Below are positions 1-10,180 of a stretch of 64,000 bases of DNA, in pieces; position 1 is the stretch's first letter, and each line of letters opens with the position of its first letter. Under the pieces are notes generated by a model. That model was not told where the DNA came from and did no database searches. It was given only the letters and a program-made list of their open reading frames with translations. The DNA is from Alcanivorax sp. 24. Its GTDB lineage: Bacteria > Pseudomonadota > Gammaproteobacteria > Pseudomonadales > Alcanivoracaceae. The position numbers and the translations under genes were made by a program. Where the stretch lies: positions 62,001 to 126,000 of the forward strand of contig NZ_SNUA01000008.1 in NCBI RefSeq assembly GCF_004360225.1, given 5' to 3'.

Positions 1-794
1 GCGCTTTCAAGGGCGTCACGGGCGGCCAGCACCTGTTCTTCCTGGTAGTTGGGGCCCTGATGGCCGCCGCGCAGCACCAGGTGGGTGTCGGCGTTGCCCG
101 GTGTTTGCACCAGGGCCGGATGGCCATGGAGGTCCAGCCCCAGGTGGGTGTGGCCGTGGGCGGCGGCGCCGATGGCGTCGCGGGCCACGGTGACGCTGCC
201 GTCGGTGCCGTTCTTGAAGCCCACCGGCAGCGGCAGGCCGCTGACCATCTCCCGGTGGATCTGTGATTCGGTGGTGCGTGCGCCGATCGCCGCCCAGGCC
301 AGCAGATCGCTCAGGTAAGAGGCGGCCAGCGGATTCAACAGTTCCGTCGCCAACGGCAGACCGAGCCCGGCCAGGTCACGCAGCAACTCTCGCGACAGTC
401 GCAGCCCGGCGGCCAGATCGTGGCGGCCATCCAGGTGCGGATCGTAGAGCAGCCCTTTCCACCCCACCGTGGTGCGTGGTTTCTCCACGTAAGCGCGCAT
501 GACCAGCAGCAACGAATCGCCCACCTGCTCGGCGAGGCCGGCCAGCCGCTGGCCGTATTCAAGGGCGGATTCGGGATCGTGCAAAGAGCAGGGGCCGGTG
601 ATCACCAGCAGGCGATCGTCCTCGCCGTTGAGAATGGCGCGGATGGCCTGACGTTGCTGGCGGATGCGGGCTTGTAATGCCGCGTCCAGAGGCAGCGCTT
701 CCCGCAGGGCGACAGGGCTGGGTAGACGTTGGTGGCGGGTTTCCTGGTCCTGGGCTTCGCCGGTTTCGGCCAGGGTGGCGACGGAGGCGTTCAT
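1..794 (-). CDS. aroG: 3-deoxy-7-phosphoheptulonate (DAHP) synthase, 3' end cut by the window
   Basis: Class I DAHP synthase, the first enzyme of the shikimate pathway, condensing PEP and erythrose-4-phosphate in the cytoplasm. The reading frame is open from the ATG at 794 to the window edge (about 264 residues of a usual ~350). Visible family motifs are LLVITGPCSLHD, MRAYVEKPRTTVGWKGL, LLNPLAASYLSDLLAWAAIGART and VGFKNGTDG. The ATG has AAGGAAAGGATT just upstream as ribosome-binding site. It lies immediately after a short aromatic-rich ORF (824-940), suggesting control by aromatic amino-acid supply. The isoenzyme specificity (Phe, Tyr or Trp feedback) cannot be told from this fragment. Confidence 0.93.
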   Translation of the reverse strand, partial: MNASVATLAETGEAQDQETRHQRLPSPVALREALPLDAALQARIRQQRQAIRAILNGEDDRLLVITGPCSLHDPESALEYGQRLAGLAEQVGDSLLLVMRAYVEKPRTTVGWKGLLYDPHLDGRHDLAAGLRLSRELLRDLAGLGLPLATELLNPLAASYLSDLLAWAAIGARTTESQIHREMVSGLPLPVGFKNGTDGSVTVARDAIGAAAHGHTHLGLDLHGHPALVQTPGNADTHLVLRGGHQGPNYQEEQVLAARDALES

Positions 795-816
795 AATCCT
801 TTCCTTGAGCAATCAG

Positions 817-833
817 GCGCCGATCATCGGCGC
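817..833 (-). promoter_or_regulatory. Hairpin just before the DAHP synthase ribosome-binding site
   Basis: Perfect 7-bp stem (GCGCCGA/TCGGCGC) with a 3-nt loop; the loop is exactly the TGA stop codon of the short aromatic-rich ORF. It lies about 15 nt upstream of the AAGGAAAGG ribosome-binding site. A ribosome finishing the leader would open it, one stalled at the early aromatic codons would not, so it could couple leader translation to aroG translation. Structure is seen; function is inferred. Confidence 0.45.
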
Positions 834-940
834 AAGGGTGTCGATGGTGGTGTCGAGTCGTGGCGGCGGCCGGCGGTCAGGCCGGCGCCGCTAAATCGCC
901 AGTAGCAAAACAACGCGAAGTCACGGTAATAGCGGGTCAT
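824..940 (-). CDS. Putative aromatic-rich leader peptide of the DAHP synthase gene (38 aa)
   Basis: A 38-codon ORF that starts MTRYYRDFALFCYWRF: seven of its first 16 residues are Tyr, Phe or Trp, far above chance. It has a plausible RBS (GGAGAAACATC) and stops 29 bases before the DAHP synthase ATG. The second half is Gly/Arg/Pro-rich and looks unconstrained as protein, while its DNA holds hairpins. The known analogy is ribosome-mediated control of amino-acid biosynthesis genes, where stalling at codons for a scarce amino acid changes RNA folding. Assignment as a regulatory leader is inference; no poly-U terminator lies between this ORF and the structural gene, so control here would more likely be translational or work with the terminator at 1000-1029. 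Confidence 0.6.
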   Translation of the reverse strand: MTRYYRDFALFCYWRFSGAGLTAGRRHDSTPPSTPLRR

Positions 941-995
941 GATGTTTCTCCGTCCTGATCTCAATAAAAGTTCATGAAAATGTCGCGCCCAAAAT

Positions 996-1029
996 GAAAA
1001 ACCCCCGGTTGGGAAGCCAACCGGGGGTT
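996..1029 (-). terminator. Strong intrinsic terminator between the two short ORFs (possible attenuator)
   Basis: On the minus strand a perfect 13-bp stem (AACCCCCGGTTGG/CCAACCGGGGGTT) with a 4-nt loop is followed by TTTTTC. It sits 48 nt after the stop of the 35-residue ORF at 1077-1184 and about 55 nt before the next short ORF. The position fits either a terminator for the upstream unit or an attenuator controlling read-through into aroG. Only weak alternative pairing (CCGGG with CCCGG) was found by eye for an antiterminator. Confidence 0.85.
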
Positions 1030-1076
1030 CAGGGGTTCGGCAGGCGTCCCGGATCCGGGCGCCTGGGCGGGAGGGC

Positions 1077-1184
1077 TCAGGCGCTCGAGCGGCTAAACCA
1101 ATACCCGTAAAAATAACCGGCGCACGCCATCACCACCGGGCTACCGGCGGTGTACAAAGCGTTGTCAGGACGTGCGATGGTCAT
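1077..1184 (-). CDS. Short ORF ending in an aromatic run; leader peptide or tiny membrane protein (35 aa)
   Basis: The ORF has a good RBS (TTTTGGAGATTCCCATG) and ends CAGYFYGYWFSRSSA, with six aromatic residues in seven positions near the C-terminus, followed 48 nt later by a strong terminator. A promoter-like TTGCGG-17 nt-TACTCT lies just upstream, giving a 5' leader of about 17 nt. This layout is that of a classical attenuator leader peptide. The alternative is a tiny single-span membrane protein, since residues 14-30 are fairly hydrophobic, linked to norB, which ends 101 bp upstream. I do not recognise a named family. Confidence 0.5.
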   Translation of the reverse strand: MTIARPDNALYTAGSPVVMACAGYFYGYWFSRSSA

Positions 1185-1208
1185 GGGAATCTCCAAAACA
1201 ATGGACGA

Positions 1209-1237
1209 AGAGTACCCCAGCCACGGTGGGGCCGCAA
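1209..1237 (-). promoter_or_regulatory. Candidate sigma-70 promoter for the short-ORF/aroG leader
   Basis: On the minus strand TTGCGG (1237-1232) and TACTCT (1214-1209) are separated by exactly 17 bases; initiation would fall near 1202, about 17 nt before the short ORF. Match to consensus is moderate. Confidence 0.35.
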
Positions 1238-1238
1238 T

Positions 1239-1260
1239 CCCCGGGGAGATTTCCCCGGGG
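1239..1260 (-). terminator. Hairpin after norB
   Basis: Nine-bp perfect stem CCCCGGGGA/TCCCCGGGG with a 4-nt loop, starting 25 bases after the norB stop. There is no U tract, so it is a stabilising or weak terminator hairpin rather than a canonical intrinsic terminator. Confidence 0.4.
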
Positions 1261-1285
1261 GGCCGGCTTCCACTCAGGCGTGGAT

Positions 1286-3559
1286 TCAGGCATTGGACTC
1301 CGCCGGCTCCAGAGCGGGAGCGCGGGCGCCGAACAGCACCCCGGAGACCACCTGCCAGGCCACCGCCAGGGCGCCGATGATGAACACCACATCGCCGAAG
1401 GTGCGCACCCAGCGCAGTGTTTGCAGCAGGTCTTGTTGCATGAACGCTTCGCTGCGGGCATACCACATGCCTTCGCTGACGCTGGCGTGGAACTGGATCA
1501 GCCCCACCGGCAGCAGGCTGGTGGCGATCATCAGCACCAGGCCGATATTGAGCAGCCAGAAGCCATTGCGCATCAGACGGTCACTGAATTGCAGCCGCGG
1601 CCGGATGTAGCGCAGCACCAGCAGCGTGAAGCCCAGGGCCAGGAAGCCGTAGACGCCGAACAGGGCGGCATGGGCATGCACCGGTGTGGTGTTCAGACCC
1701 TGGATGTAATACAGGGAGATCGGCGGGTTGATCATGAAGCCGAACACCCCGGCGCCGAGCATGTTCCAGAACGCCACCGCCACGAAACAGGCCACCGGCC
1801 ATTTCATCTGCCCCATCCACGGAGCCCGTTCACGCAGTTTGCTGTGTTCCCAGGCCTCGTAGCCGAGCACCACCAGCGGCACCACTTCCAGAGCACTGAA
1901 TGTCGCCCCCACCGCCATCACCGGTGTGGTGGTCCCGGCGAAGTACAGGTGATGGAAGGTGCCGGGCACGCCGCCGAGCAGGAACAGGGAGGCGGAGGCC
2001 AGGCTGGCGCCGGTGGCGACGGTACGGGATACCAGGCCCAGGTTGTAGAAGATGAAAGCCAGGGCAGTGGTGGCGAACACCTCGAAGAAGCCTTCCACCC
2101 ACAGATGCACGATCCACCAGCGCCAGTACTCCATGATGGAAAGATGAGTGCGCTCGCCATAGAAGAAGCCGGCGCCGTAGAACAGGCCGATGGCGGTCAC
2201 CGAGGCGGTGAGCAGCACCAGCAGGTGTTTGTCGCCGGGTTTGCGCAGGGCCGGGCCGATACCGCGCAACATCAGCACCAGCCAGAAGGCGACGCCGGTG
2301 AATTTGCCGATCTGCCACAGCCGGCCCAGATCGACGTATTCATAGCCCTGATGACCGAGCCAGAAGTTCAGGTTCTCCGGCATGATCTGGGCGATGGCCA
2401 GGTAGTTGCCAACGAAGGAACCGACCACCACCACCACCAGCGCCCAGAACAGAACATCGACGCCGAGCTTCTGGAACTTCGGGTCCTTGCCGCCATTAAT
2501 GATCGGCGCCAGGAACAGACCGGCGGCGAGGAAGCCGGTGGCGATCCAGAACAGCGCACTCTGGATATGCCAGGTGCGAAGCAGTGAGTAGGGGAAGTAT
2601 TGAGACAACTCGAAGCCGTAGAAATGCTGACCTTCCACGGTGTAGTGCGCCACCCCGCCGCCGAGGAACACCTGGAAGGTGAACAGGGCCACCACCAGGA
2701 ACAGGTATTTGCCCAATGCTCTTTGTGATGGCGTCAGAGAGACCAGACTGAGCGGATCGCGGGCGGGGGCCGGTGGCTCGCCTTCATCGTGGCGGCGCAG
2801 GAAGGCCCAGCCCAGAATCAGGAAGCCGACGCCGGCGATCAGCAGGATGATGCTGATGATCGACCAGACTATGTTCTCGGCGGTGGGCAGGTTATCGATC
2901 AGTGGCTCGTGAGGCCAGTTGTTGGTGTAGGTGGCGTCGCCGTCGGGGCGTTCGGTGGCCGCCGCCCAGGCGGTCCAGAAGAAGAATTGAGTGAGCGCCC
3001 GCCGGCGGTTCTCACTGGGTAGAGTGCCTTCCTTCATGGCGTAGCTTTGCCGCGTGCCACGCAACTCTGGCGCGTCACCGAACAGCCGGGAGTAATAGTC
3101 GGCGGTCAACGCCATGGCTTCGGCACGCCGGTTGCTTACTGTCAGCGTGCCGTCGCTTTCTCCGAAGGTGTTGGTGCGGTAGGCGTCGCGCAGCGCCCGT
3201 TGCAGCATCGCCTGATGTTCGTTGTCCAGAGCGTCATAGGGCTGACCGTAGCGTTCCCGGGCCGCCAGATCGAGCCAGTGGATCAACTCCCGGTGCAGCC
3301 AGTCGGCGGTCCAGTCCGGCGCTTGATAGGCGCCGTGTCCCCAGATCGATCCCAGTTGCATGCCGCCCACGGATTGCCAGGCGGTTTGGCCGTCGAGAAT
3401 GTCATCCCGGGTCATCAGTACGGTGCCGTCCTCGGTCACCACCCGATCCGGGATCGGTGGCGCCTTGCGGTAGACCTCGGTACCGAAGTAACCGAGCAAC
3501 GCGAACGTGACCGCCAGAACGGCGATCAGCGTCCACCAGAGTTTGCGGTAGTGGGCCAT
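1286..3559 (-). CDS. norB: Quinol-dependent nitric oxide reductase (qNorB)
   Basis: Single-subunit, inner-membrane NO reductase that reduces 2 NO to N2O with quinol electrons. The protein of 757 residues has the N-terminal membrane anchor and ~200-residue periplasmic domain (containing QTAWQSVGGMQLGSIWGHG) that marks qNorB, followed by the 12-helix heme-copper-oxidase-like core. Likely heme b, heme b3 and FeB ligands lie in TWHIQSA (about residue 330), HLWVEGFFEVF (about 485), HHLYFAG (about 536) and HAHAALFGVYGF (about 630). The start at 3559 was chosen over ATGs upstream because AGGAGG lies 7 nt before it. Two NsrR-type operators lie 50-100 bp upstream, so NO induction through NsrR is likely. 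The window has no nitrite reductase gene. Confidence 0.96.
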   Translation of the reverse strand: MAHYRKLWWTLIAVLAVTFALLGYFGTEVYRKAPPIPDRVVTEDGTVLMTRDDILDGQTAWQSVGGMQLGSIWGHGAYQAPDWTADWLHRELIHWLDLAARERYGQPYDALDNEHQAMLQRALRDAYRTNTFGESDGTLTVSNRRAEAMALTADYYSRLFGDAPELRGTRQSYAMKEGTLPSENRRRALTQFFFWTAWAAATERPDGDATYTNNWPHEPLIDNLPTAENIVWSIISIILLIAGVGFLILGWAFLRRHDEGEPPAPARDPLSLVSLTPSQRALGKYLFLVVALFTFQVFLGGGVAHYTVEGQHFYGFELSQYFPYSLLRTWHIQSALFWIATGFLAAGLFLAPIINGGKDPKFQKLGVDVLFWALVVVVVGSFVGNYLAIAQIMPENLNFWLGHQGYEYVDLGRLWQIGKFTGVAFWLVLMLRGIGPALRKPGDKHLLVLLTASVTAIGLFYGAGFFYGERTHLSIMEYWRWWIVHLWVEGFFEVFATTALAFIFYNLGLVSRTVATGASLASASLFLLGGVPGTFHHLYFAGTTTPVMAVGATFSALEVVPLVVLGYEAWEHSKLRERAPWMGQMKWPVACFVAVAFWNMLGAGVFGFMINPPISLYYIQGLNTTPVHAHAALFGVYGFLALGFTLLVLRYIRPRLQFSDRLMRNGFWLLNIGLVLMIATSLLPVGLIQFHASVSEGMWYARSEAFMQQDLLQTLRWVRTFGDVVFIIGALAVAWQVVSGVLFGARAPALEPAESNA

Positions 3560-3610
3560 GGTCGGGTCCTCCTGTTGATCCATGGGCATGGGGTTGGCGA
3601 ACAAGTCTTA

Positions 3611-3633
3611 AAGGTGCATATAAAATATATCTT
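3611..3633 (-). promoter_or_regulatory. NsrR-type operator upstream of norB (site 1)
   Basis: Imperfect 11-1-11 palindrome AAGGTGCATAT-A-AAATATATCTT resembling the NsrR consensus half-site AAGATGCATTT. It lies about 52 bp upstream of the norB start. Confidence 0.65.
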
Positions 3634-3635
3634 TA

Positions 3636-3658
3636 AAGATGCATTCACAATACATGTT
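3636..3658 (-). promoter_or_regulatory. NsrR-type operator upstream of norB (site 2)
   Basis: Palindrome AAGATGCATTC-A-CAATACATGTT, 8 of 11 positions symmetric; the left half matches the NsrR half-site closely. It overlaps the stop codon of the nnrS-like gene, so the norB promoter is embedded in its 3' end. Confidence 0.7.
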
Positions 3659-4754
3659 AAGGATAATTTTCCATGCTCAGTGGTCTTGCTCTTCCGTGGA
3701 GCAGGAGCAGCAGGGTCAGATAGGCGAGACTCCAACAGAGAGAGGCCGCCGGCAGCAGCCATGACGGCGCTATCTCCGCGCCCCAGCGGGCCGCCGTGGC
3801 GGCGTTAAGCAATACCATCACCACCATGACCGGGCGGTGCGGCGGAACCCGGCCGCGATGGCGCGGCCCGGCCTGACGGGCCATGACGCCGCAGGAGAGT
3901 GAGCCAAGGGCGCCCACGGTGATACCGTGCAGTGGCGTGGTGATGGCATGACCGTTGATCAAGGCAAGCCCCATGCCACTGAGCCCCAGCGCCAACCAGC
4001 CGTAGCCCTGGCCGAGCAGCCACAAATCCGGCCGGGGCACTGACCACAAGCGCCAACGCCAGAGGCGCGCCAGCACCAGAGTGCCGAGAGCGCTCAGCAA
4101 TAACCCGGTGAGTACGGGGTTGCGCCAGGCGCTGCCCCAGGCCAGTCCGAAGGTGACCAGTAACAGGCCCTCCAGACGGGGCTGCACTCGTGCGTGCAAC
4201 TCCTTTCCCTGTCGTTGCCAGGCCGCCGCGGCCAACGGCGCGATGATGCGTCCGCCCATGTAGGTGAGTAGCGCGGCGAGGGTGAGCACGGCAGGTAAAC
4301 GAGGCCAGGGTGACGGCAGCCACCACACCAGAAGCGGTGTCAGACACAACCAGGGAACCAGACCCAGGCCAACCCGGTTACGCCATTTTCTGGCGTGACG
4401 CAGGCGGGGTAGAAGCAGTGCGGTCAGCAGTACGCCGGTCAACGGATCCCAGCCAGACAGCATAAACGGCGCGTCGGCAAACAGTCGTTGCCAGCGGCCC
4501 AGGCCCCAGAGCAGCGTCAGCCCCCATCGCCGTGCTGGCGGCTGCGGGCCGAGCAGATAGCCGGCGATCAACATCGGCGCCAGTCCGAACAGCATCTCCA
4601 TGCCATGACCGGCACCCAGCAGGCCGGGGGGAGCGCCATTGAGGTAAGCCCAGGTGGAGAGCGGCACCATCACCGCGGCCTCAACGCAGGCGAGAGAAAA
4701 GAACAGCCGGGAGCAAGGCCGCCGACGCGGTGGGAAAGAGGCGGGAGTGGACAT
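3657..4754 (-). CDS. nnrS: NnrS family heme-copper membrane protein (divergent paralogue)
   Basis: A very hydrophobic 365-residue protein with about 12 predicted membrane segments and the NnrS hallmarks: an N-terminal LFFSLACVEAAVMVPLSTW segment, HGMEMLFGLAPMLIAGYLL, and a central TYMGGRIIAPLAAAAW. NnrS proteins bind heme and copper and help cells tolerate NO stress; the molecular mechanism is not settled. It shares a divergent promoter with a second nnrS gene at 4846, with an NsrR-type operator between them. norB follows 97 bp downstream with its own operators. Its C-terminus is diverged from the neighbouring paralogue, suggesting an old duplication. Confidence 0.85.
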   Translation of the reverse strand: MSTPASFPPRRRPCSRLFFSLACVEAAVMVPLSTWAYLNGAPPGLLGAGHGMEMLFGLAPMLIAGYLLGPQPPARRWGLTLLWGLGRWQRLFADAPFMLSGWDPLTGVLLTALLLPRLRHARKWRNRVGLGLVPWLCLTPLLVWWLPSPWPRLPAVLTLAALLTYMGGRIIAPLAAAAWQRQGKELHARVQPRLEGLLLVTFGLAWGSAWRNPVLTGLLLSALGTLVLARLWRWRLWSVPRPDLWLLGQGYGWLALGLSGMGLALINGHAITTPLHGITVGALGSLSCGVMARQAGPRHRGRVPPHRPVMVVMVLLNAATAARWGAEIAPSWLLPAASLCWSLAYLTLLLLLHGRARPLSMENYP

Positions 4755-4772
4755 GGGCTGGTATTTCCTTTA

Positions 4773-4795
4773 AAGATGCATTTGTAATACATCTA
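4773..4795. promoter_or_regulatory. NsrR-type operator between the two nnrS genes
   Basis: AAGATGCATTT-G-TAATACATCTA, the best match of the three to the NsrR 11-1-11 palindrome. It lies 19 bp from the minus-strand nnrS start and 51 bp from the plus-strand nnrS start, so one site could control both directions. Confidence 0.75.
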
Positions 4796-4845
4796 AAATA
4801 TTGTCATCACCCACTGTCGTGCCGGTGGTATCGAGGAACCTTGTC

Positions 4846-6018
4846 ATGGATCAAACATTGCGATCACCAAGACGGCCATGGGTGGTGTTGTTCGCTTTCC
4901 CGTTTCGTATTTTTTTCGTTTCCACGGGTGTTGCCGCGGTACTGTTGTTGCCGCTGTGGCTGTGGTGGCTGCTCGGCGGCGGCGGGCCGGCGATGTCGGC
5001 GTTGCTATGGCATCAACATGAGATGACGGTGGGGCTGCTTAACGCGGCCATCGCCGGCTTCCTGCTTACCGCGGTGTGCAACTGGACCGGCACCGCGCCA
5101 GTTTCGGGGCGCGCGTTGCTGGTTCTGTGGGGGCTGTGGTTGTCGGCCCGTCTCGGATTGTTATTGGGGGACGCCTGGCAGCTGCTGGCGGTGTTGCTGG
5201 ATCTGGCTTTCCTGCCCGTGGTGGCGATACTCGTCGCCAGGCGCGTCTGGTCCGCGCGCCAGGCGCGTCAAGCGCCCTTGATCGGAGTGCTGCTCGCCCT
5301 GTGGGGATTGGACGTGGCGTTTCACTGGAGCGGAGATCCCCGTTTCCTACATGGGCTGGTGCTGCTGGGCGCGTTGCTGATCCTGATGGTGGGCGGCCGC
5401 ATTACCCCGGCTTTCACCGCCAACTGGCTGCGTCTGCACGGCGATGATCCGGGGCGGGTCCGGCGTCGGCCGGCGCTGGATATTGCGGGGCTGGTCTGCG
5501 GATTGGCCGTGGTGGTGCTGGATTTGACCGCGTGGCGGGGGCTTGCGGTGGCCCTGGTGGGGCTGCTGGCGGCACTGATCACCGCCGCGCGGCTGGCAGG
5601 TTGGGCCGGCTGGCGGGTCCGGCGTGAGCCATTGCTGTGGATTCTGCATCTGGGACATCTCTGGGTAGGGCTAGGATACGGGCTCTGGGCGGCGGCCAAG
5701 GCTGGCCTGCCGGTGGCTCCCACGGCCTGGGTGCATGCCTTGGGCGCTGGCGCCATCGGCACCATGATCCTGGGTGTGATCACCCGTGTCGCCATGGGGC
5801 ATACTGGCCGCCCCATGTGCCTGTTGCCGGGCATGCGATGGGGGTTCCTGGCGATACTGGCGGCGGGTCTGGTCCGGGTGCTGGCCGGACTGGGCGTGTT
5901 GCCCTGGCTGCCGGGGCTGTGGCTGGCGGCGGGGTTGTGGTTGCTGGCCTGGTTGTTGTTCCTGTGGCTTTATACCCCGGTGCTGGCGGCGCCGAGGGCG
6001 GATGGGCGGCCGGGCTGA
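4846..6018 (+). CDS. nnrS: NnrS family protein
   Basis: NnrS family multi-pass membrane protein of 390 residues, about 12 membrane helices. Family motifs include FPFRIFF near the N-terminus, LLWHQHEMTVGLLNAAIAGFLLTAVCNWTG (residues ~60-90), LMVGGRITPAFTANWL and LGAGAIGTMILGVITRVAMGHTGRP. The His residues in HQHEM are candidate metal ligands. An in-frame TTG lies at 4801, but the ATG at 4846 has GAGGAACC 8 nt upstream and is preferred. It overlaps the following Rrf2 regulator gene by one base (TGATG), so both are co-transcribed and probably translationally coupled. An NsrR-type operator precedes it. Confidence 0.94.
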   Translation: MDQTLRSPRRPWVVLFAFPFRIFFVSTGVAAVLLLPLWLWWLLGGGGPAMSALLWHQHEMTVGLLNAAIAGFLLTAVCNWTGTAPVSGRALLVLWGLWLSARLGLLLGDAWQLLAVLLDLAFLPVVAILVARRVWSARQARQAPLIGVLLALWGLDVAFHWSGDPRFLHGLVLLGALLILMVGGRITPAFTANWLRLHGDDPGRVRRRPALDIAGLVCGLAVVVLDLTAWRGLAVALVGLLAALITAARLAGWAGWRVRREPLLWILHLGHLWVGLGYGLWAAAKAGLPVAPTAWVHALGAGAIGTMILGVITRVAMGHTGRPMCLLPGMRWGFLAILAAGLVRVLAGLGVLPWLPGLWLAAGLWLLAWLLFLWLYTPVLAAPRADGRPG

Positions 6019-6458
6019 TGCGGATTACCCGCTATACCGACTACGCCCTGCGCGTGCTGATTCAACTGGCGCTGCAACCGCGGCGTCTGACCATAGCCGA
6101 CATGGCCAGGGCTTACGGCATCTCCCGCCACCACCTGACCAAGGTGGTGCATCAACTGCAGCGTCTGGGTTATGTGGAGACCCAGCGTGGACAAACCGGC
6201 GGCGTCCGCTTGGCTTGCCCGGCGGAGGATATCCGGGTGGGCAAGGTGGTGCGGGACATGGAGCCGGACCTGGCTCTGGTGGAGTGCTTCCATGGCGAGG
6301 ACCGCTGCGCGATCACGCCATACTGTCAGCTGCGGGTGGTGTTCGAGCAGGGGCTGAGATTGTTTCTGGAAACGCTGGACGGTTATACCCTGGAAGACAT
6401 GGTTCGCGGGGAGCGCCGGCAATTGATCCGGATTCTGGAACCGCCATCCTTCGGTTGA
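6018..6458 (+). CDS. nsrR: Rrf2 family NO-sensing repressor, NsrR-like (copy 1)
   Basis: Rrf2-type regulator of 146 residues: N-terminal winged helix (MRITRYTDYALRVL... YGISRHHLTKVVHQLQRLGY) and a cysteine cluster ECFHGEDRCAITPYC, the C-x6-C-x5-C pattern expected to hold the NO-sensitive Fe-S cluster of NsrR. Its start overlaps the stop of nnrS. It is therefore part of an nnrS-nsrR unit with an NsrR-like operator at the front, implying autoregulation. A second NsrR-like gene runs convergently 9 bp away. Confidence 0.88.
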   Translation: MRITRYTDYALRVLIQLALQPRRLTIADMARAYGISRHHLTKVVHQLQRLGYVETQRGQTGGVRLACPAEDIRVGKVVRDMEPDLALVECFHGEDRCAITPYCQLRVVFEQGLRLFLETLDGYTLEDMVRGERRQLIRILEPPSFG

Positions 6459-6467
6459 CCGGTCGGC

Positions 6468-6917
6468 TCAGGCGCTCCGCTCGGTGACGGTCGGCAAAAG
6501 CCGCTTATGCAGCGCCCGCCGTGGTTCGATGAGATCGGCCAGGGTGTAGCCATCAAGGACGTGCAGGAACGCGTTCAAGGCTTCATTGAGGGCACTGCGC
6601 AATACGCAATTGGGAGTAAGGACACAAGCATTCTGGTCCCCGAAGCACTCCACCAGACTCATGTTGGCCTCGGTGTAGCGAATCACCTCGCCCACATTGA
6701 TGTCTTCGGGGCGATGAGCCAGGCGCAGCCCGCCGTTCTTGCCGCGCAGGGTTTCCACATAGCCCAGTTGGCCGAGCTGATGCACCACCTTGACGATATG
6801 GTTGCGGGAAATGCCGTAGCTTTCCGAAATAGCGCTGATGGTGCTCAGCGTCTCTCCCCGCAGGCCAAGATAGATCAGTACGCGCAAGGAGTAGTCACTG
6901 TATTGGGTCAGCTTCAT
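6468..6917 (-). CDS. nsrR: Rrf2 family NO-sensing repressor, NsrR-like (copy 2)
   Basis: Second NsrR-like regulator, 149 residues: MKLTQYSDYSLRVLIYL opening, helix-turn-helix YGISRNHIVKVVHQLGQLGY, and Cys cluster ECFGDQNACVLTPNC (C-x6-C-x5-C). The ATG at 6917 was chosen because the family consensus begins MxLTxYTDYxLRVL there. It is about as similar to canonical NsrR as copy 1 and transcribed towards it. Upstream is the divergent SirB2 gene. Which copy governs norB and nnrS cannot be told from sequence. Confidence 0.88.
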   Translation of the reverse strand: MKLTQYSDYSLRVLIYLGLRGETLSTISAISESYGISRNHIVKVVHQLGQLGYVETLRGKNGGLRLAHRPEDINVGEVIRYTEANMSLVECFGDQNACVLTPNCVLRSALNEALNAFLHVLDGYTLADLIEPRRALHKRLLPTVTERSA

Positions 6918-6974
6918 GGTCCCGGTTCCAAACGATGAACAATGGATTAGCCGGCAGTATAACGGAGTCTCGCA

Positions 6975-7364
6975 ATGATGTTGGATTACCTGTTGATCAA
7001 GCACCTGCACATGACCTTGGCGGCGTTGAGTCTGGGGCTGTTCGTGCTGCGTGCGGGTTGGTCGGTGACGGAGTCGCCGATGTTGCGACGGCGTTGGGTG
7101 CGTGTCACCCCTCATCTGGTGGACACGCTGTTGCTGATTCTCGGGGTCACGCTGATGGTTCTGTTGCGGGCCTGGCCTCACCAGACCCCTTGGTTGGCGG
7201 CCAAACTGCTGGCACTGGTGGCCTATATCGGTCTGGGCACGATGGCGATAAAGCGAGGAACCACGCCGGCGCGGAGGGCTGGATACGCGCTGGCGGCGGT
7301 GTTGATCTTTCTCTATATGGTGGGGGTGGCGGTTCGGCATCATCCCGGGTCCTGGCTGAGCTGA
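6975..7364 (+). CDS. SirB2 family membrane protein
   Basis: A 129-residue protein with four hydrophobic segments and the SirB2 family pattern: LIKHLHMTLAALSLGLFVLR, VTPHLVDTLLLILGVTLM, PWLAAKLLALVAYIGLGTMAIKRG and a C-terminal helix. Function of the family is unknown. GGAG lies 7 nt before the ATG. It is divergent from the second NsrR gene with 57 bp between them; no operator is evident there. Confidence 0.8.
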   Translation: MMLDYLLIKHLHMTLAALSLGLFVLRAGWSVTESPMLRRRWVRVTPHLVDTLLLILGVTLMVLLRAWPHQTPWLAAKLLALVAYIGLGTMAIKRGTTPARRAGYALAAVLIFLYMVGVAVRHHPGSWLS

Positions 7365-7642
7365 GACGATGATAAATAAGACAATGAAGTTGACATGGGG
7401 CGATGGTGTTAGAAAGTGTTTTTTTTGAGGAGAATAATTTTACTCAGGTTGGTCGATAAGACCGGAGATAAAGCTTTTAAAGCCAATAGGAGCTTTTTTA
7501 TTTTTTGAACCATGCCTTTTTTTATAAACAAAAAATCGACTTTTACCTTTTGTTACTTGAGCTTCCCGATAGCTGATTTAATGATGCCCTCATCTGGGAC
7601 CTGTCGCGTCTCCAGTTCGTCAGATTGCACGAGGAGCGAAAT
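7365..7642. other. AT-rich intergenic block with a terminator-like hairpin
   Basis: About 280 bp without a convincing gene, markedly richer in A/T than its surroundings. It contains TTGACA at 7390-7395, runs of T, a purine-rich GAGGAGAATAA, and a short stem AAAGC/GCTTT (7479-7496) followed by T-rich sequence, which could end a small RNA or the SirB2 transcript. It probably also carries the promoter of the exported protein at 7643. Confidence 0.4.
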
Positions 7643-8119
7643 ATGAAAAAGCACTGGATGTTGGTACTGGCTTCCACGGCGGCCCTGAGCAGCCAGGTAG
7701 CCGTGGCGGATCTGTCCGCTGGCGTGAATGCCGCGGTAAATGCAGAGGCCGCTGGTGTCAATGCGGCGGTGAAGGCCGACGCCGATGCCAAAGCCGCCGA
7801 GAAAGCTCTGCGTGACAAGCGCGACGCCGCCAAGGACAAGGCCGAAGCTACCCTCGAAAAAGCCAAGGCCGAGAAAGACGCCGCCGTGGAAGACGCGGAG
7901 TCCAGGAAGGAAGCCGCTAAGAATCGCATGGAAGACGCCAAAGCCGAGGCCAACGCCCGGGCCGAAGCCGGCAAAGCCAAGGCCGAAACCAAACGTGAGG
8001 AAGCCATGAAGAAGGTGGACGCCGCTCGGGACAATGCCTCGGTGGAGGCGGAAGCCAACGCCAATGCCAGCGTGAAAGCGGAAGAGAAAGGCAAGCCCTG
8101 GTACAAATTCTGGGATTGA
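7643..8119 (+). CDS. Exported Ala/Lys/Glu-rich coiled-coil protein of unknown function
   Basis: 158 residues. A Sec signal peptide (MKKHWMLVLASTAALSSQVAVA) is followed by a mature region made almost wholly of Ala, Lys, Glu, Asp and Arg, low in hydrophobics beyond Ala, with heptad-like spacing typical of a single long helix or coiled coil (residues ~45-140), and a C-terminal GKPWYKFWD. The ATG at 7643 with GAGGAG 7 nt upstream is preferred over a TTG at 7625. Monocistronic, with a clear terminator after it. The aromatic C-terminal tail might be a membrane or cell-wall interaction motif; this is a guess. I do not recognise a named family. Confidence 0.75.
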   Translation: MKKHWMLVLASTAALSSQVAVADLSAGVNAAVNAEAAGVNAAVKADADAKAAEKALRDKRDAAKDKAEATLEKAKAEKDAAVEDAESRKEAAKNRMEDAKAEANARAEAGKAKAETKREEAMKKVDAARDNASVEAEANANASVKAEEKGKPWYKFWD

Positions 8120-8140
8120 TAGTGCCTCCGCCGATAAATC

Positions 8141-8175
8141 ACCCCGGTCGCCGTCTTGGGCGCCCGGGGTTTTTT
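8141..8175 (+). terminator. Intrinsic terminator
   Basis: ACCCCGG/CCGGGGT stem with an internal loop region followed by TTTTTT, 21 bp after the stop of the exported coiled-coil gene. Confidence 0.8.
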
Positions 8176-8217
8176 GTGCCCAGCGGGAACGGCCGTCCTC
8201 ACAGTCGTAAGAAAGTC

Positions 8218-8317
8218 CGCTTATACGCAACACGCTGATTCGCTGCCAAGGCAGCTTCCCACAGCGACTTCGTAGCCCCCCGTCGTGGGAAGCTGCCTTG
8301 GCGGCGAATCGGCGCGT
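8218..8317. repeat. Palindromic intergenic repeat, copy 1
   Basis: Inverted arms GATTCGCTGCCAAGGCAGCT and its complement flank a short variable loop (arms 8237-8262 and 8285-8310), preceded by CGCTTATACGCAACACGCT. Similar elements occur at 21367, 24334, 26553 and 33408. REP-like bacterial interspersed element. Confidence 0.85.
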
Positions 8318-8634
8318 TTTTATATCGCCTGGACCAATAGAGGGCCACGGCCATGGATTCCGCGGTCAAGCGTCAGAATCATCAGAACTTGTGAGGCAGC
8401 CGTTGCCTCTGGCGATTTTTTGGGCTTGCCTTATTACACCAATGGGCTATGGTCATGGCTTCCATTGGTGCTGAATCCTGATTAGCTCAACGCAAATGAC
8501 TCTCTTCTTTCGTTTTACCTCTCTGACCTTTCCGGTTTAAGCCGGACGGCCTCTGGCTGTTCCGGCATCCCTCGTTTTATTTCGACAACTGTCTGTCGTT
8601 AACCGACTTTCCATGATGACGTGGAGGCGCGCTG
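8318..8634. other. Intergenic stretch with no recognised gene
   Basis: About 317 bp. I see no convincing ORF. Small hairpins GAGGCA/TGCCTC (8393-8409) and TCCGG/CCGGA (8531-8546) are present; a GGAGG at 8622 belongs to the next gene. Confidence 0.4.
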
Positions 8635-9045
8635 GTGAAGCCTGTTCGTGGTTCATGGCTGGAAAAGCGATTTGTACCCATGGTTCGAAAGTATGCGGTG
8701 AGGAACCCGTGTTGCTTCCCTCCTGGTCCCGGAGAAATCAGCGCCGTACTCGGCAAGCTGGAAGCACTGAGGCAGGCTGGGGGAGAGGCCCGGGTTGGCG
8801 TCGGTACCGTCGTGCGGATGGAAGATCTGCTCAGTGGTGAGCAGGGGAGCTTTCAATTGGTATGGCCGGACGAAGCGGCCCCGGAACAACGTCGTCTTTC
8901 GATTCTATCGCCACTGGGCGCTGCTCTGCTGGGAGCCCATCGCGGTGATGAGGTGACGGTGACCTTGTTCGGATGCCGCTGTGAATTTCGAGTTCTGGCC
9001 CTGCGGGAGGCGGAGCCTCGGGAGGGTAGCGCCGTGCGGTTATGA
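8635..9045 (+). CDS. Rnk/GreA C-terminal-domain-like protein
   Basis: 136 residues from a GTG with GGAGG 7 nt upstream. The C-terminal half matches the Rnk/GreA-GreB C-terminal fold: VGTVVRMEDLLSGEQGSF, SILSPLGAALLGAHRGDEV, and a closing beta strand. Such proteins bind RNA polymerase's secondary channel or regulate nucleoside diphosphate kinase levels. The N-terminal ~45 residues lack the usual GreA coiled coil, so direct transcript-cleavage activity is unlikely. An internal ATG at 8680 is a possible alternative start. Its neighbours give no functional hint. Confidence 0.7.
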   Translation: MKPVRGSWLEKRFVPMVRKYAVRNPCCFPPGPGEISAVLGKLEALRQAGGEARVGVGTVVRMEDLLSGEQGSFQLVWPDEAAPEQRRLSILSPLGAALLGAHRGDEVTVTLFGCRCEFRVLALREAEPREGSAVRL

Positions 9046-9157
9046 GTGCGCCGGGCGGGATACCGCGAATCGCCGAGCCCTGTTCCGGGGCCCTGTGACC
9101 CACCTCCCGTCATTGGCGGCGCGGCGGGGGGACGTCTCGTTCACCATGGGTGAGATC

Positions 9158-9235
9158 ATGAGTAAAGAGAAACCCAAAAAGAAGGCGCAAAAATCCCTCA
9201 AGGAAAAACGCCGCGACAAGCGGGAGAAGCGGTAG
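9158..9235 (+). CDS. Very basic 25-residue protein
   Basis: MSKEKPKKKAQKSLKEKRRD followed by KREKR: more than half Lys/Arg. GGTGAGATC precedes the ATG and a clean terminator follows, supporting expression. A start at 9146 would add four residues. Short Lys/Arg-rich proteins of this type are annotated as hypothetical in related bacteria; a nucleic-acid-binding role is a guess. Confidence 0.55.
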   Translation: MSKEKPKKKAQKSLKEKRRDKREKR

Positions 9236-9246
9236 GGGATGCCTGG

Positions 9247-9269
9247 CGGGGCCATTATGGCCCCGTTTT
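9247..9269 (+). terminator. Intrinsic terminator
   Basis: Eight-bp stem CGGGGCCA/TGGCCCCG with a 3-nt loop and TTTT, 11 bp after the small basic ORF. Confidence 0.8.
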
Positions 9270-9427
9270 CCCTGTTCACATGAAAAACCATTTGAAAGCC
9301 GAGAGGGGCGGTGTGGGGCCGGAATTTGAGCTACATCATGATTCTCGGGGGCGCTTCTTGATTCAATAAGGTCCGAGCCGGTCCATTTGCCGGTGGATCG
9401 TCAACCATAATCAAAGAAGAGAGGACG

Positions 9428-10180
9428 ATGTCAGCGATCATTGATGTATTGGCGCGGACGGAGCTGTTCTCGACCCTGAAACCAAACGCCTTACGGGCGC
9501 TGTGTGAGGGTGGCCGGACCATCAATCTGCCAGATAACGGTCATTTGTTTGAAGTGGGGGAGATGGCGAACGCCTACTACCTGATGACCAGTGGCGTGAT
9601 GCGTTTGTACCGGCCGGGTCTGGATGGCGAGGACAAAGTATTCCAAGTGGTCGCCGAGGGGGACCTGGTGGCGGAAACCGCCATGTTTTCCGAGCCTTGT
9701 ATATATCCTTTGTCGGCCGAAGCGGAGAGCGCCAGCACCCTGATCCGCCTGCCTCGACCTGGCTTGCTCGGTCTGGTCCGGGTACAGCCGGATTTCGCCC
9801 TGCGCTTACTGGGAGAGATGTCTCACCGGCTTTATCAGGCGGTGAACCGGTTGGACCAGCTCACGGTGACCAATGCCGGACAAAGGGTGGCGATGTATTT
9901 GCTGGAGTTGACCGAGTGGCGGCCAGAGCATTGGGTGGTGCTGCCGGTAAGCGCCAAGGTGCTGGCGAGACAGCTGAATGTAACACCGGAAACGCTGTCG
10001 CGTCTGCTCACCCGTTTTCGCCAGAGCGGCCTGATCAGCGGGCGCGGACGTCGCTGGATGATCCTTGATCCCACGGAGTTATGCCGGGCCGCCAATCTGC
10101 CGTTACCGGACGCTCAGTGCCATTGTGCCGGCTCGCAGTTTTTTCGCTGTTGTAATTTCAGTCACCGATCCTGCTCATAG
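9428..10180 (+). CDS. Crp/Fnr family regulator, DNR/ANR-like
   Basis: 250 residues: cyclic-nucleotide-binding-like beta barrel (residues ~1-120), a long dimerisation helix, and a C-terminal helix-turn-helix LARQLNVTPETLSRLLTRF. The recognition helix carries E-x2-S-R as in FNR, predicting binding to TTGAT-N4-ATCAA, the boxes seen at narK/ubiT, nrdD, ubiU and cydD. It lacks the N-terminal Cys cluster of FNR/ANR, so it resembles DNR, the NO/heme-dependent denitrification regulator. Odd: the C-terminus extends past the fold with a Cys-rich tail (CHC, CC and C within about 20 residues) not usual for DNR. It is convergent with the nar operon's last gene. Confidence 0.85.
   Translation: MSAIIDVLARTELFSTLKPNALRALCEGGRTINLPDNGHLFEVGEMANAYYLMTSGVMRLYRPGLDGEDKVFQVVAEGDLVAETAMFSEPCIYPLSAEAESASTLIRLPRPGLLGLVRVQPDFALRLLGEMSHRLYQAVNRLDQLTVTNAGQRVAMYLLELTEWRPEHWVVLPVSAKVLARQLNVTPETLSRLLTRFRQSGLISGRGRRWMILDPTELCRAANLPLPDAQCHCAGSQFFRCCNFSHRSCS

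Follow-up and report, generated by a model that had tools for sequence, protein, structure and literature searches.

A probable transcription attenuator reading phenylalanine, tyrosine and tryptophan precedes aroG in Alcanivorax and corresponds to the Pseudomonas RNA P15

We analyzed a 64,000-nucleotide stretch of the Alcanivorax sp. 24 genome (the window), in which the minus strand carries, in order, a norB-type gene, a promoter, a short open reading frame (ORF1), a terminator, a second short open reading frame (ORF2) and aroG (Table 1). The aroG product matches TIGR00034 (aroFGH, E 1.2e-98) and PF00793 (E 2.3e-54), which upholds the assignment of this gene as a DAHP synthase in a preliminary description made by reading the sequence. 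That description had also named the promoter, both short ORFs, the terminator and a hairpin with the ORF2 stop codon in its loop, and each of them was found where it had been placed. In the window, the terminator begins 46 to 49 nt past the ORF1 stop, and ORF2 has seven aromatics in its first 16 residues (Y4, Y5, F8, F11, Y13, W14 and F16). The 461-nt region from 780 to 1240 has a folding z of -5.06. Of 33 non-redundant leaders, 28 have a promoter-like pattern, TTG-N16-18-YAnnnT, at most 75 nt ahead of ORF1, compared to 5% of shuffled sequences; a stricter promoter scan of window positions 1 to 3000 listed none. The gene upstream of the leader encodes a protein with NorB and COX1 domains, a nitric oxide reductase. 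Positions 1286 to 10180 appear to hold a nitric oxide response cluster, with the NorB-type reductase, two NnrS proteins and a Crp-family regulator; two further ORFs in it look Rrf2-like by reading alone. Between norB and the ORF1 promoter there is a GC-rich hairpin, CCCCGGGG...CCCCGGGG (1239-1260, minus strand), without a T run.

Table 1. Positions of the aroG leader features within the window
Feature	Positions	Strand	Basis
Promoter-like TTGCGG (1237-1232), 17-nt spacer, TACTCT (1214-1209)	1209..1237	-	Sequence reading; YAnnnT-type pair in relatives
ORF1, putative 35-aa leader peptide MTIARPDNALYTAGSPVVMACAGYFYGYWFSRSSA, SD GGAG, C-terminal end GYFYGYWFSRSSA	1077..1184	-	ATG 1184, stop 1079-1077
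Control codons TAT TTT TAC GGG TAT TGG TTT (Tyr, Phe, Trp)	1095..1115	-	Codon conservation
Segment B, ORF1 end and stop codon; predicted partner C during a stall at the control codons	1072..1092	-	Covariation, occlusion folding
Segment C, hairpin II 5' arm	1056..1065	-	Folding, covariation
Segment D, hairpin II 3' arm; alternative partner, terminator apex	1041..1051	-	Covariation
Intrinsic terminator E:F, 14 pairs, then TTTTT 1001-997	999..1030	-	Terminator scan, covariation
Terminator apex GGCUUCCCA, predicted antiterminator target of segment D	1010..1018	-	Covariation, swap test
Rfam RF00627 (P15) match, 64.5 bits, gathering score 70	1002..1119	-	Rfam covariance search
ORF2, 38 aa, second aromatic-rich ORF, start MTRYYRDFALFCYWRF	824..940	-	ATG 940, stop 826-824
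7-bp hairpin, loop formed by the ORF2 stop codon	817..833	-	833-827 paired with 823-817
aroG, type I DAHP synthase, truncated by the window edge	3..794	-	ATG 794; 357-aa open frame in genome

We collected relatives by searching genome contigs with AroG and keeping the best 80 of at least 546 confirmed matches, a set that was not chosen for the presence of a leader. The aromatic core of ORF1 precedes aroG in all 80 of these best matches. The first sequence pattern caught 79 of the 80 cores, and a looser one caught L011 (YRFGYWFSHWRA), which makes 81 with the window. Among the matches listed, the closest relatives are Alloalcanivorax species, with 96% identical AroG. Searching for the leader itself, we found the 15-nt core pattern GGGTATTGGTTTAGC in 9 of 369 genomes of the class: the window's own, three with other leaders (L085, L088 and L089) and five in which it lies, by reading, in other places, so that aroG adjoins three of the eight outside matches. 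The Rfam model RF00627 at E ≤ 0.001, run with filters that lose weak matches, hit 21 of 244 genomes of the order, once in each, and all 20 hits outside the window's genome adjoin AroG (L097 to L116). An AroG match thus lies downstream in each of the 23 added loci, the 3 pattern leaders and the 20 Rfam loci. Pooling the window, the 80 AroG loci and these 23 gave 104 loci, which are not all distinct genomes (L089 is L099, L105 resembles L008 and L110 resembles L010); we derived 34 non-redundant leaders from them. The core is present in 104 of 104 pooled loci, as judged by a list of patterns to which variants already observed had been added. The element is single-copy in the window's genome, where our own model of it, R1, scores no other place above 26 bits. 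R1 was also run on 274 genomes of the class. Its four matches above 70 bits all adjoin aroG, and one of them comes from a family outside the order; the remaining matches scored about 32 bits or less, and the 21 of these that were returned with their locus lacked an AroG match. In the window's genome, the second DAHP synthase gene has neither such a leader nor an aromatic-rich ORF in the 500 nt that precede its match, and a search of plasmids with the L042 leader gave no match. One record, OQ572414.1 ("Pseudomonas phage Y13," marked UNVERIFIED), carries a leader, an ORF2-like stretch and aroG at positions 2501-3659 of locus L096, with 64% AroG identity; this is most likely host chromosomal DNA in the record.

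The conservation of ORF1 is concentrated in its control codons. Phe, Tyr and Trp are all present in the end of ORF1, and an ATG with a Shine-Dalgarno sequence (SD) precedes it, in 103 of the 104 loci; the one locus without them, L026, runs into a contig end and was mis-sliced. The core codons GGG, TAT, TGG, TTT and AGC are kept in 96, 101, 104, 102 and 102 of the 104 loci, respectively. Before the core, 138 of 178 Phe codons and 114 of 136 Tyr codons end in U, whereas in the aroG genes of the same loci UUU makes up only 19 of 283 Phe codons and UAU only 52 of 418 Tyr codons. Disfavored U-ending Phe and Tyr codons are what a starvation sensor would use. Residues upstream of the core interchange F and Y, with W in a few loci. 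The residues after it are SHWRA in 66 loci, SRSRA in 8 and SRSSA in 5, down to the single cases SAGVPAARSD, MTGVPAAMS and RNGHA. The part before the core has a pN/pS of 0.68 (44 distinct sequences), compared to 1.01 and 0.57 for the other frames. The variable part of ORF1 is therefore without clear coding constraint, as expected if it is translation and not the peptide that matters. The element GGGUAUUGGUUUAGC, within 1077-1115 in the window and likewise in relatives, is nearly invariant without a covarying partner, and no covarying helix accounts for the near-invariance of GGG TAT TGG TTT AGC. This element and UGGCGAUUUA of most ORF2s share G-N-UUUA. The shared motif resembles what we take to be an RNase E site.

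Folding each of the 34 leaders gave both hairpin II (C:D) and the terminator (E:F). Together with two alternative pairings, these helices form an overlapping chain, B:C, C:D, D:apex and E:F, in which the apex spans the last part of E, the loop and the first part of F. When D pairs with the apex, neither hairpin II nor the closed terminator can form. In the window, this helix pairs CGGGAcGCC with GGCuUCCC; other examples are GGGUUGCC with GGCAACCC in L112 and CGUGCUGCC with GGCAGCACG in L116. We aligned 22 of the 34 leaders and counted cells in which both partners change and the pair is kept, against 500 shuffles that ignore phylogeny. All four helices exceeded every shuffle (0/500 each): 11 cells versus 4.2 in shuffled alignments for B:C, 8 versus 1.6 for C:D, 15 versus 7.1 for D:apex and 7 versus 1.6 for E:F. 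At the D:apex pair 93-134, the leaders have AU in 8 cases, UA in 8 and CG in 2. By covariation score, C:D, D:apex and E:F outscore their own slid versions. For B:C, a partner slid by -2 columns scores 0.164 versus 0.151, with 12 versus 11 cells and fewer cells paired, and the numbers of double-change pairs and of pair types among the 22 leaders are not above shuffles; the B:C register is therefore loose and not unique. Hairpin I (A:B) was dropped as a covarying helix, since its covariation is not above shuffles and it is weak in the swap test described below (166/20,000). A pairing of D with the terminator base (GGG:CCC) can be drawn in most leaders but never shows double changes, and it was superseded by D:apex.

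As an alignment-free measure, we compared the duplex energy of segments from the same leader with that of segments swapped between leaders, using 20,000 permutations that ignore phylogeny; this test was first run on 18 chosen representatives and then covered all 34 leaders. Cognate segments win for B:C, C:D, D:apex and E:F (0/20,000 each). The result is weak for A:B and also for A:C, which is outside the model (303/20,000), and nine other segment combinations are not significant, from 2,310 (D-E) to 19,924 (B-apex) of 20,000. Conserved aromatic codons with compensatory changes in the stems were the check that the preliminary description had proposed for its attenuation idea, and the relatives have both. 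The same description had worried that the antiterminator pairing was weak. The answer to this doubt is that the partner of hairpin II's 3' arm is the terminator apex and not the terminator base.

To model ribosome occlusion, we placed a ribosome covering 30 nt at each codon in turn and folded the nascent leader as far as the terminator apex. For stalls from TAT (1115) to TTT (1097) in the window, B:C has a probability of 0.70 to 0.91 and D:apex one of 0.70 to 0.72. With the A site one codon further on, at AGC, hairpin II rises to 0.85 and D:apex falls to 0.10. At later ORF1 codons the picture is less clear-cut: D:apex wanders between 0.05 and 0.43 and climbs back to 0.14 to 0.43 at some of them. 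Its mean is 0.71 before the core and 0.27 past it. Without a ribosome, the window leader is in a mixed state (hairpin II 0.40, D:apex 0.41). Across 33 leaders, L026 being omitted for its contig end, the antiterminator probability drops by at least 0.2 past the aromatic codons in 27, and the mean drop is 0.40, compared to 0.03 when segment B is shuffled. The shuffled control also drops, by 0.20 to 0.41, in L115, L109, L007, L046, L089, L104 and L088. There is almost no computed switch in 5 of the 33 leaders (L015, L113, L116, L010 and L038), four of which (L010, L015, L113 and L116) also lacked it in a folding of 11 leaders, and in L114 the probability moves by 0.13 in the opposite direction. 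Where a switch occurs, its boundary is at or near the last aromatic codon, as an attenuation model requires.

The block from ORF1 to the terminator is thus, with high probability, a ribosome-mediated transcription attenuator of aroG that would sense charged tRNA-Phe, tRNA-Tyr and tRNA-Trp together. This model is grounded in the conservation of the block, in the covariation of its mutually alternative helices and in computed folds that, for most leaders, switch at the expected codon. Attenuation of this kind, reading Phe, Tyr and Trp through ORF1, is what the preliminary description had suspected, and covariation, codon conservation and occlusion folding all support it. We infer that the peptide is made, that stalling occurs and that aroG expression responds. 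Transcription would start ahead of ORF1. If any of the three charged tRNAs is scarce, the ribosome would stall in the YFYGYWF codons, B would pair with C, and D would be left free for the terminator apex; with D:apex formed, the terminator could not close and polymerase would continue into aroG. With ample supplies of all three, the ribosome would pass the aromatic codons and mask B, C:D would form hairpin II, and the terminator would close and release a short RNA. In Pseudomonas, this released RNA would be "sRNA P15."

The strongly conserved end of ORF1, together with core third bases that are conserved without a covarying partner, could also be explained by an arrest peptide of the TnaC type, whose C terminus GYWFS..RA stalls the ribosome on a free aromatic compound. 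We consider this unlikely: the residues that follow the core vary in step with B:C pairing, and the aromatic residues upstream of it swap F for Y, or W in a few loci.

The name P15 belongs to Rfam family RF00627. Of seven loci scanned with its model, six (Pseudomonas, Azotobacter, Halopseudomonas and Alcanivorax S71-1-4) score 94.5 to 121.8 bits, including 95.6 to 121.8 bits in five loci of the Pseudomonas group: L015, L079, L042, L046 (Halopseudomonas) and L032 (Azotobacter). L010 scores 61.4 bits, and the element of Alloalcanivorax xenomutans (L004) reaches 70.6 bits. The window matches over the full length of the model (1-119) with E 1.6e-12, and an Rfam scan at the gathering score gave no match there because its 64.5 bits fall under the threshold of 70. 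The window element is a P15 homologue, formally just under the Rfam cut-off. A hit of another model, RF02243 (Xoo8), over the leader was set aside, as that model matches 99 of 274 genomes at E ≤ 0.001, only 1 of them above its cut-off; an excerpt of PMC3039613 places Xoo8 between lpxC and ftsZ.

Rfam files RF00627 as "Gene; Pseudomonas sRNA P15," and an excerpt of PMC2375449 lists P15 among the small RNAs detected by Livny et al., both of which would fit an independent trans-acting small RNA that merely adjoins aroG. A terminated leader RNA would give the same blot picture and could also act in trans. That the block is an independent small RNA we regard as quite improbable: it stands in cis before aroG in 80 AroG loci (the best 80 of at least 546) and in the 20 Rfam matches outside the window's genome, with one match per genome in 21 genomes; it holds an ORF with an SD in 103 of 104 loci and U-ending aromatic codons; and the computed state of its switch helices follows the position of a ribosome. 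Another proposal comes from an excerpt of PMC2527527, where P15 "may correspond to a riboswitch" on the basis of synteny with a TPP riboswitch, and the ORF2 part of the leader does have a candidate pseudoknot and invariant stretches, as described below. For the first block, however, the conserved core is a run of Tyr, Phe and Trp codons read in the frame set by a start codon with an SD, and ribosome occlusion accounts for the helices, which makes a ligand-binding riboswitch in place of a ribosome-sensing leader very improbable. In the ORF2 part, a riboswitch is conceivable. Least credible of all is the idea that ORF1 encodes a small membrane protein, a doubt already raised in the preliminary description, with the terminator as the plain end of its gene: the middle of ORF1 looks hydrophobic by reading in the window and it follows a nitric oxide reductase gene, but its N-terminal two thirds vary freely and are dissimilar across families, the aromatic codons are near-invariant including third bases, and there is no Pfam or NCBIfam hit at E ≤ 1.

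Downstream of the terminator, we defined ORF2 by an ATG, an SD, a length of 20 aa or more and no fewer than three aromatics, and found it in 97 of 104 loci. The other layout, a single leader with a T run 23 to 61 nt before aroG, is that of L005, L006, L008, L011, L105, L109 and L111. ORF2 has exactly 50 codons in 62 loci. In Pseudomonas, the pN/pS of its aromatic part is 0.26; for the whole it is 0.50, versus 1.27 and 0.70 in the other frames. Many Pseudomonas have a candidate pseudoknot in ORF2. Its junction motif, defined as a sequence pattern, is present in 68 of the 88 ORF2s with TGGCGATTT; it is absent from ORF2 of the window, which has the 7-bp hairpin with the stop codon in its loop instead. 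In 36 distinct gapless ORF2 sequences, 94% of the cells of this candidate, of the H type, pair. Its helix 1 has three double-change pairs (2/500 shuffles) and one column pair, 24-48, that is unpaired in 28 of the 36; helix 2 is always paired, with one-sided variation. Partners slid by +3 columns have a covariation of 0.107 versus 0.058, but only 61% of their cells pair, compared to 94%. Two other candidates were rejected. A frameshift fusion of ORF2 with aroG, prompted by the candidate pseudoknot following UGGCGAUUUA, does not fit the frame of aroG, which is 0, 1 and 2 in 45, 19 and 33 of 97 loci, and long-range ORF2 helices from RNAalifold (18 Pseudomonas loci) have a double change in 1 of 29 pairs.

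The preliminary description had further suggested a translational step through ORF2. This was not supported: in the window and 20 relatives, folded as secondary structure without pseudoknots, accessibility of the aroG SD does not depend consistently on the position of a ribosome stalled in ORF2, and there is no consistent aromatic-codon effect. Across stalls, access ranges from 0.28 to 0.95 in L057, 0.02 to 1.00 in L115, 0.21 to 0.48 in L007 and 0.45 to 0.71 in the window. The exception is masking by a ribosome near the ORF2 stop or the SD in family f4 (L112 to L115 and L088). There, the distance between the end of ORF2 and the beginning of aroG is -4 to 26 nt, short enough to suggest translational coupling in this family. 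Family f4 also has CCUCC, complementary to an SD, at the pseudoknot junction, possibly for coupling or as an anti-SD. ORF2 appears to be real and conserved; our guess is that it serves as a second, weaker control of aroG translation or in coupling. One could imagine two leader ORFs in series, with the ORF1 attenuator and its apex-invading antiterminator followed, after readthrough, by ORF2 as a second sensor whose aromatic codons would set a pseudoknotted RNA and so tune aroG translation through a freed anti-SD or coupling, though we offer this as a speculation with the odds against it. If true, ORF1 and ORF2 together would gate the first step of the shikimate pathway in two stages and according to three amino acids, a role concealed by the small-RNA name.

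Under the attenuator model, an RNA family of Pseudomonas and its relatives that is catalogued as an sRNA would gain a function, and a single leader would explain how the entry step of aromatic synthesis can be matched to the supply of Phe, Tyr and Trp alike. It would also be a clean case of an antiterminator aimed at a terminator apex, with a possible use in engineering aromatic products in Pseudomonas putida and Alcanivorax. Attenuators in proteobacteria were reportedly surveyed by Vitreschak et al. in 2004, and P15 is said to originate with Livny in 2006. Public notes on P15 may mention the neighboring DAHP synthase gene already. In the literature we searched, we found neither P15 described as an attenuator nor a tandem leader before a DAHP synthase gene. 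The terms P15, leader peptide, DAHP, PA1750, aromatic and aroF are absent from the main text of PMC8297930.

How does this leader compare with known systems? The aroG leader block and RF00627 are the same RNA. RF00627, however, is filed as an sRNA-type gene, and its structure line draws one folded state (a long hairpin, hairpin II and the terminator) and marks neither the ORF nor the alternative helices. TnaC-type leaders encode a conserved peptide with an essential Trp near its end, and ORF1 shares the conserved peptide and the Trp near the end; unlike in TnaC, its conservation lies mainly in the nucleotides, and the core is followed by variable residues. The nearest known form is what we take to be the his-like A-F chain, known from the enteric attenuators of hisL, pheL/pheA, thrL and trpL. 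With these, the aroG leader shares a leader peptide with control codons, a chain of alternative helices, an intrinsic terminator and a predicted stall that favors readthrough. It differs in that one leader would serve all three aromatic amino acids, its target is a type I DAHP synthase, the antiterminator hits the apex of the terminator hairpin, and a second aromatic-rich ORF lies past the terminator. The sequences thus describe what is very likely an attenuator, and its novel points would be the reassignment of the P15 family, a single three-aromatic leader before aroG, an apex-directed antiterminator and the second ORF.
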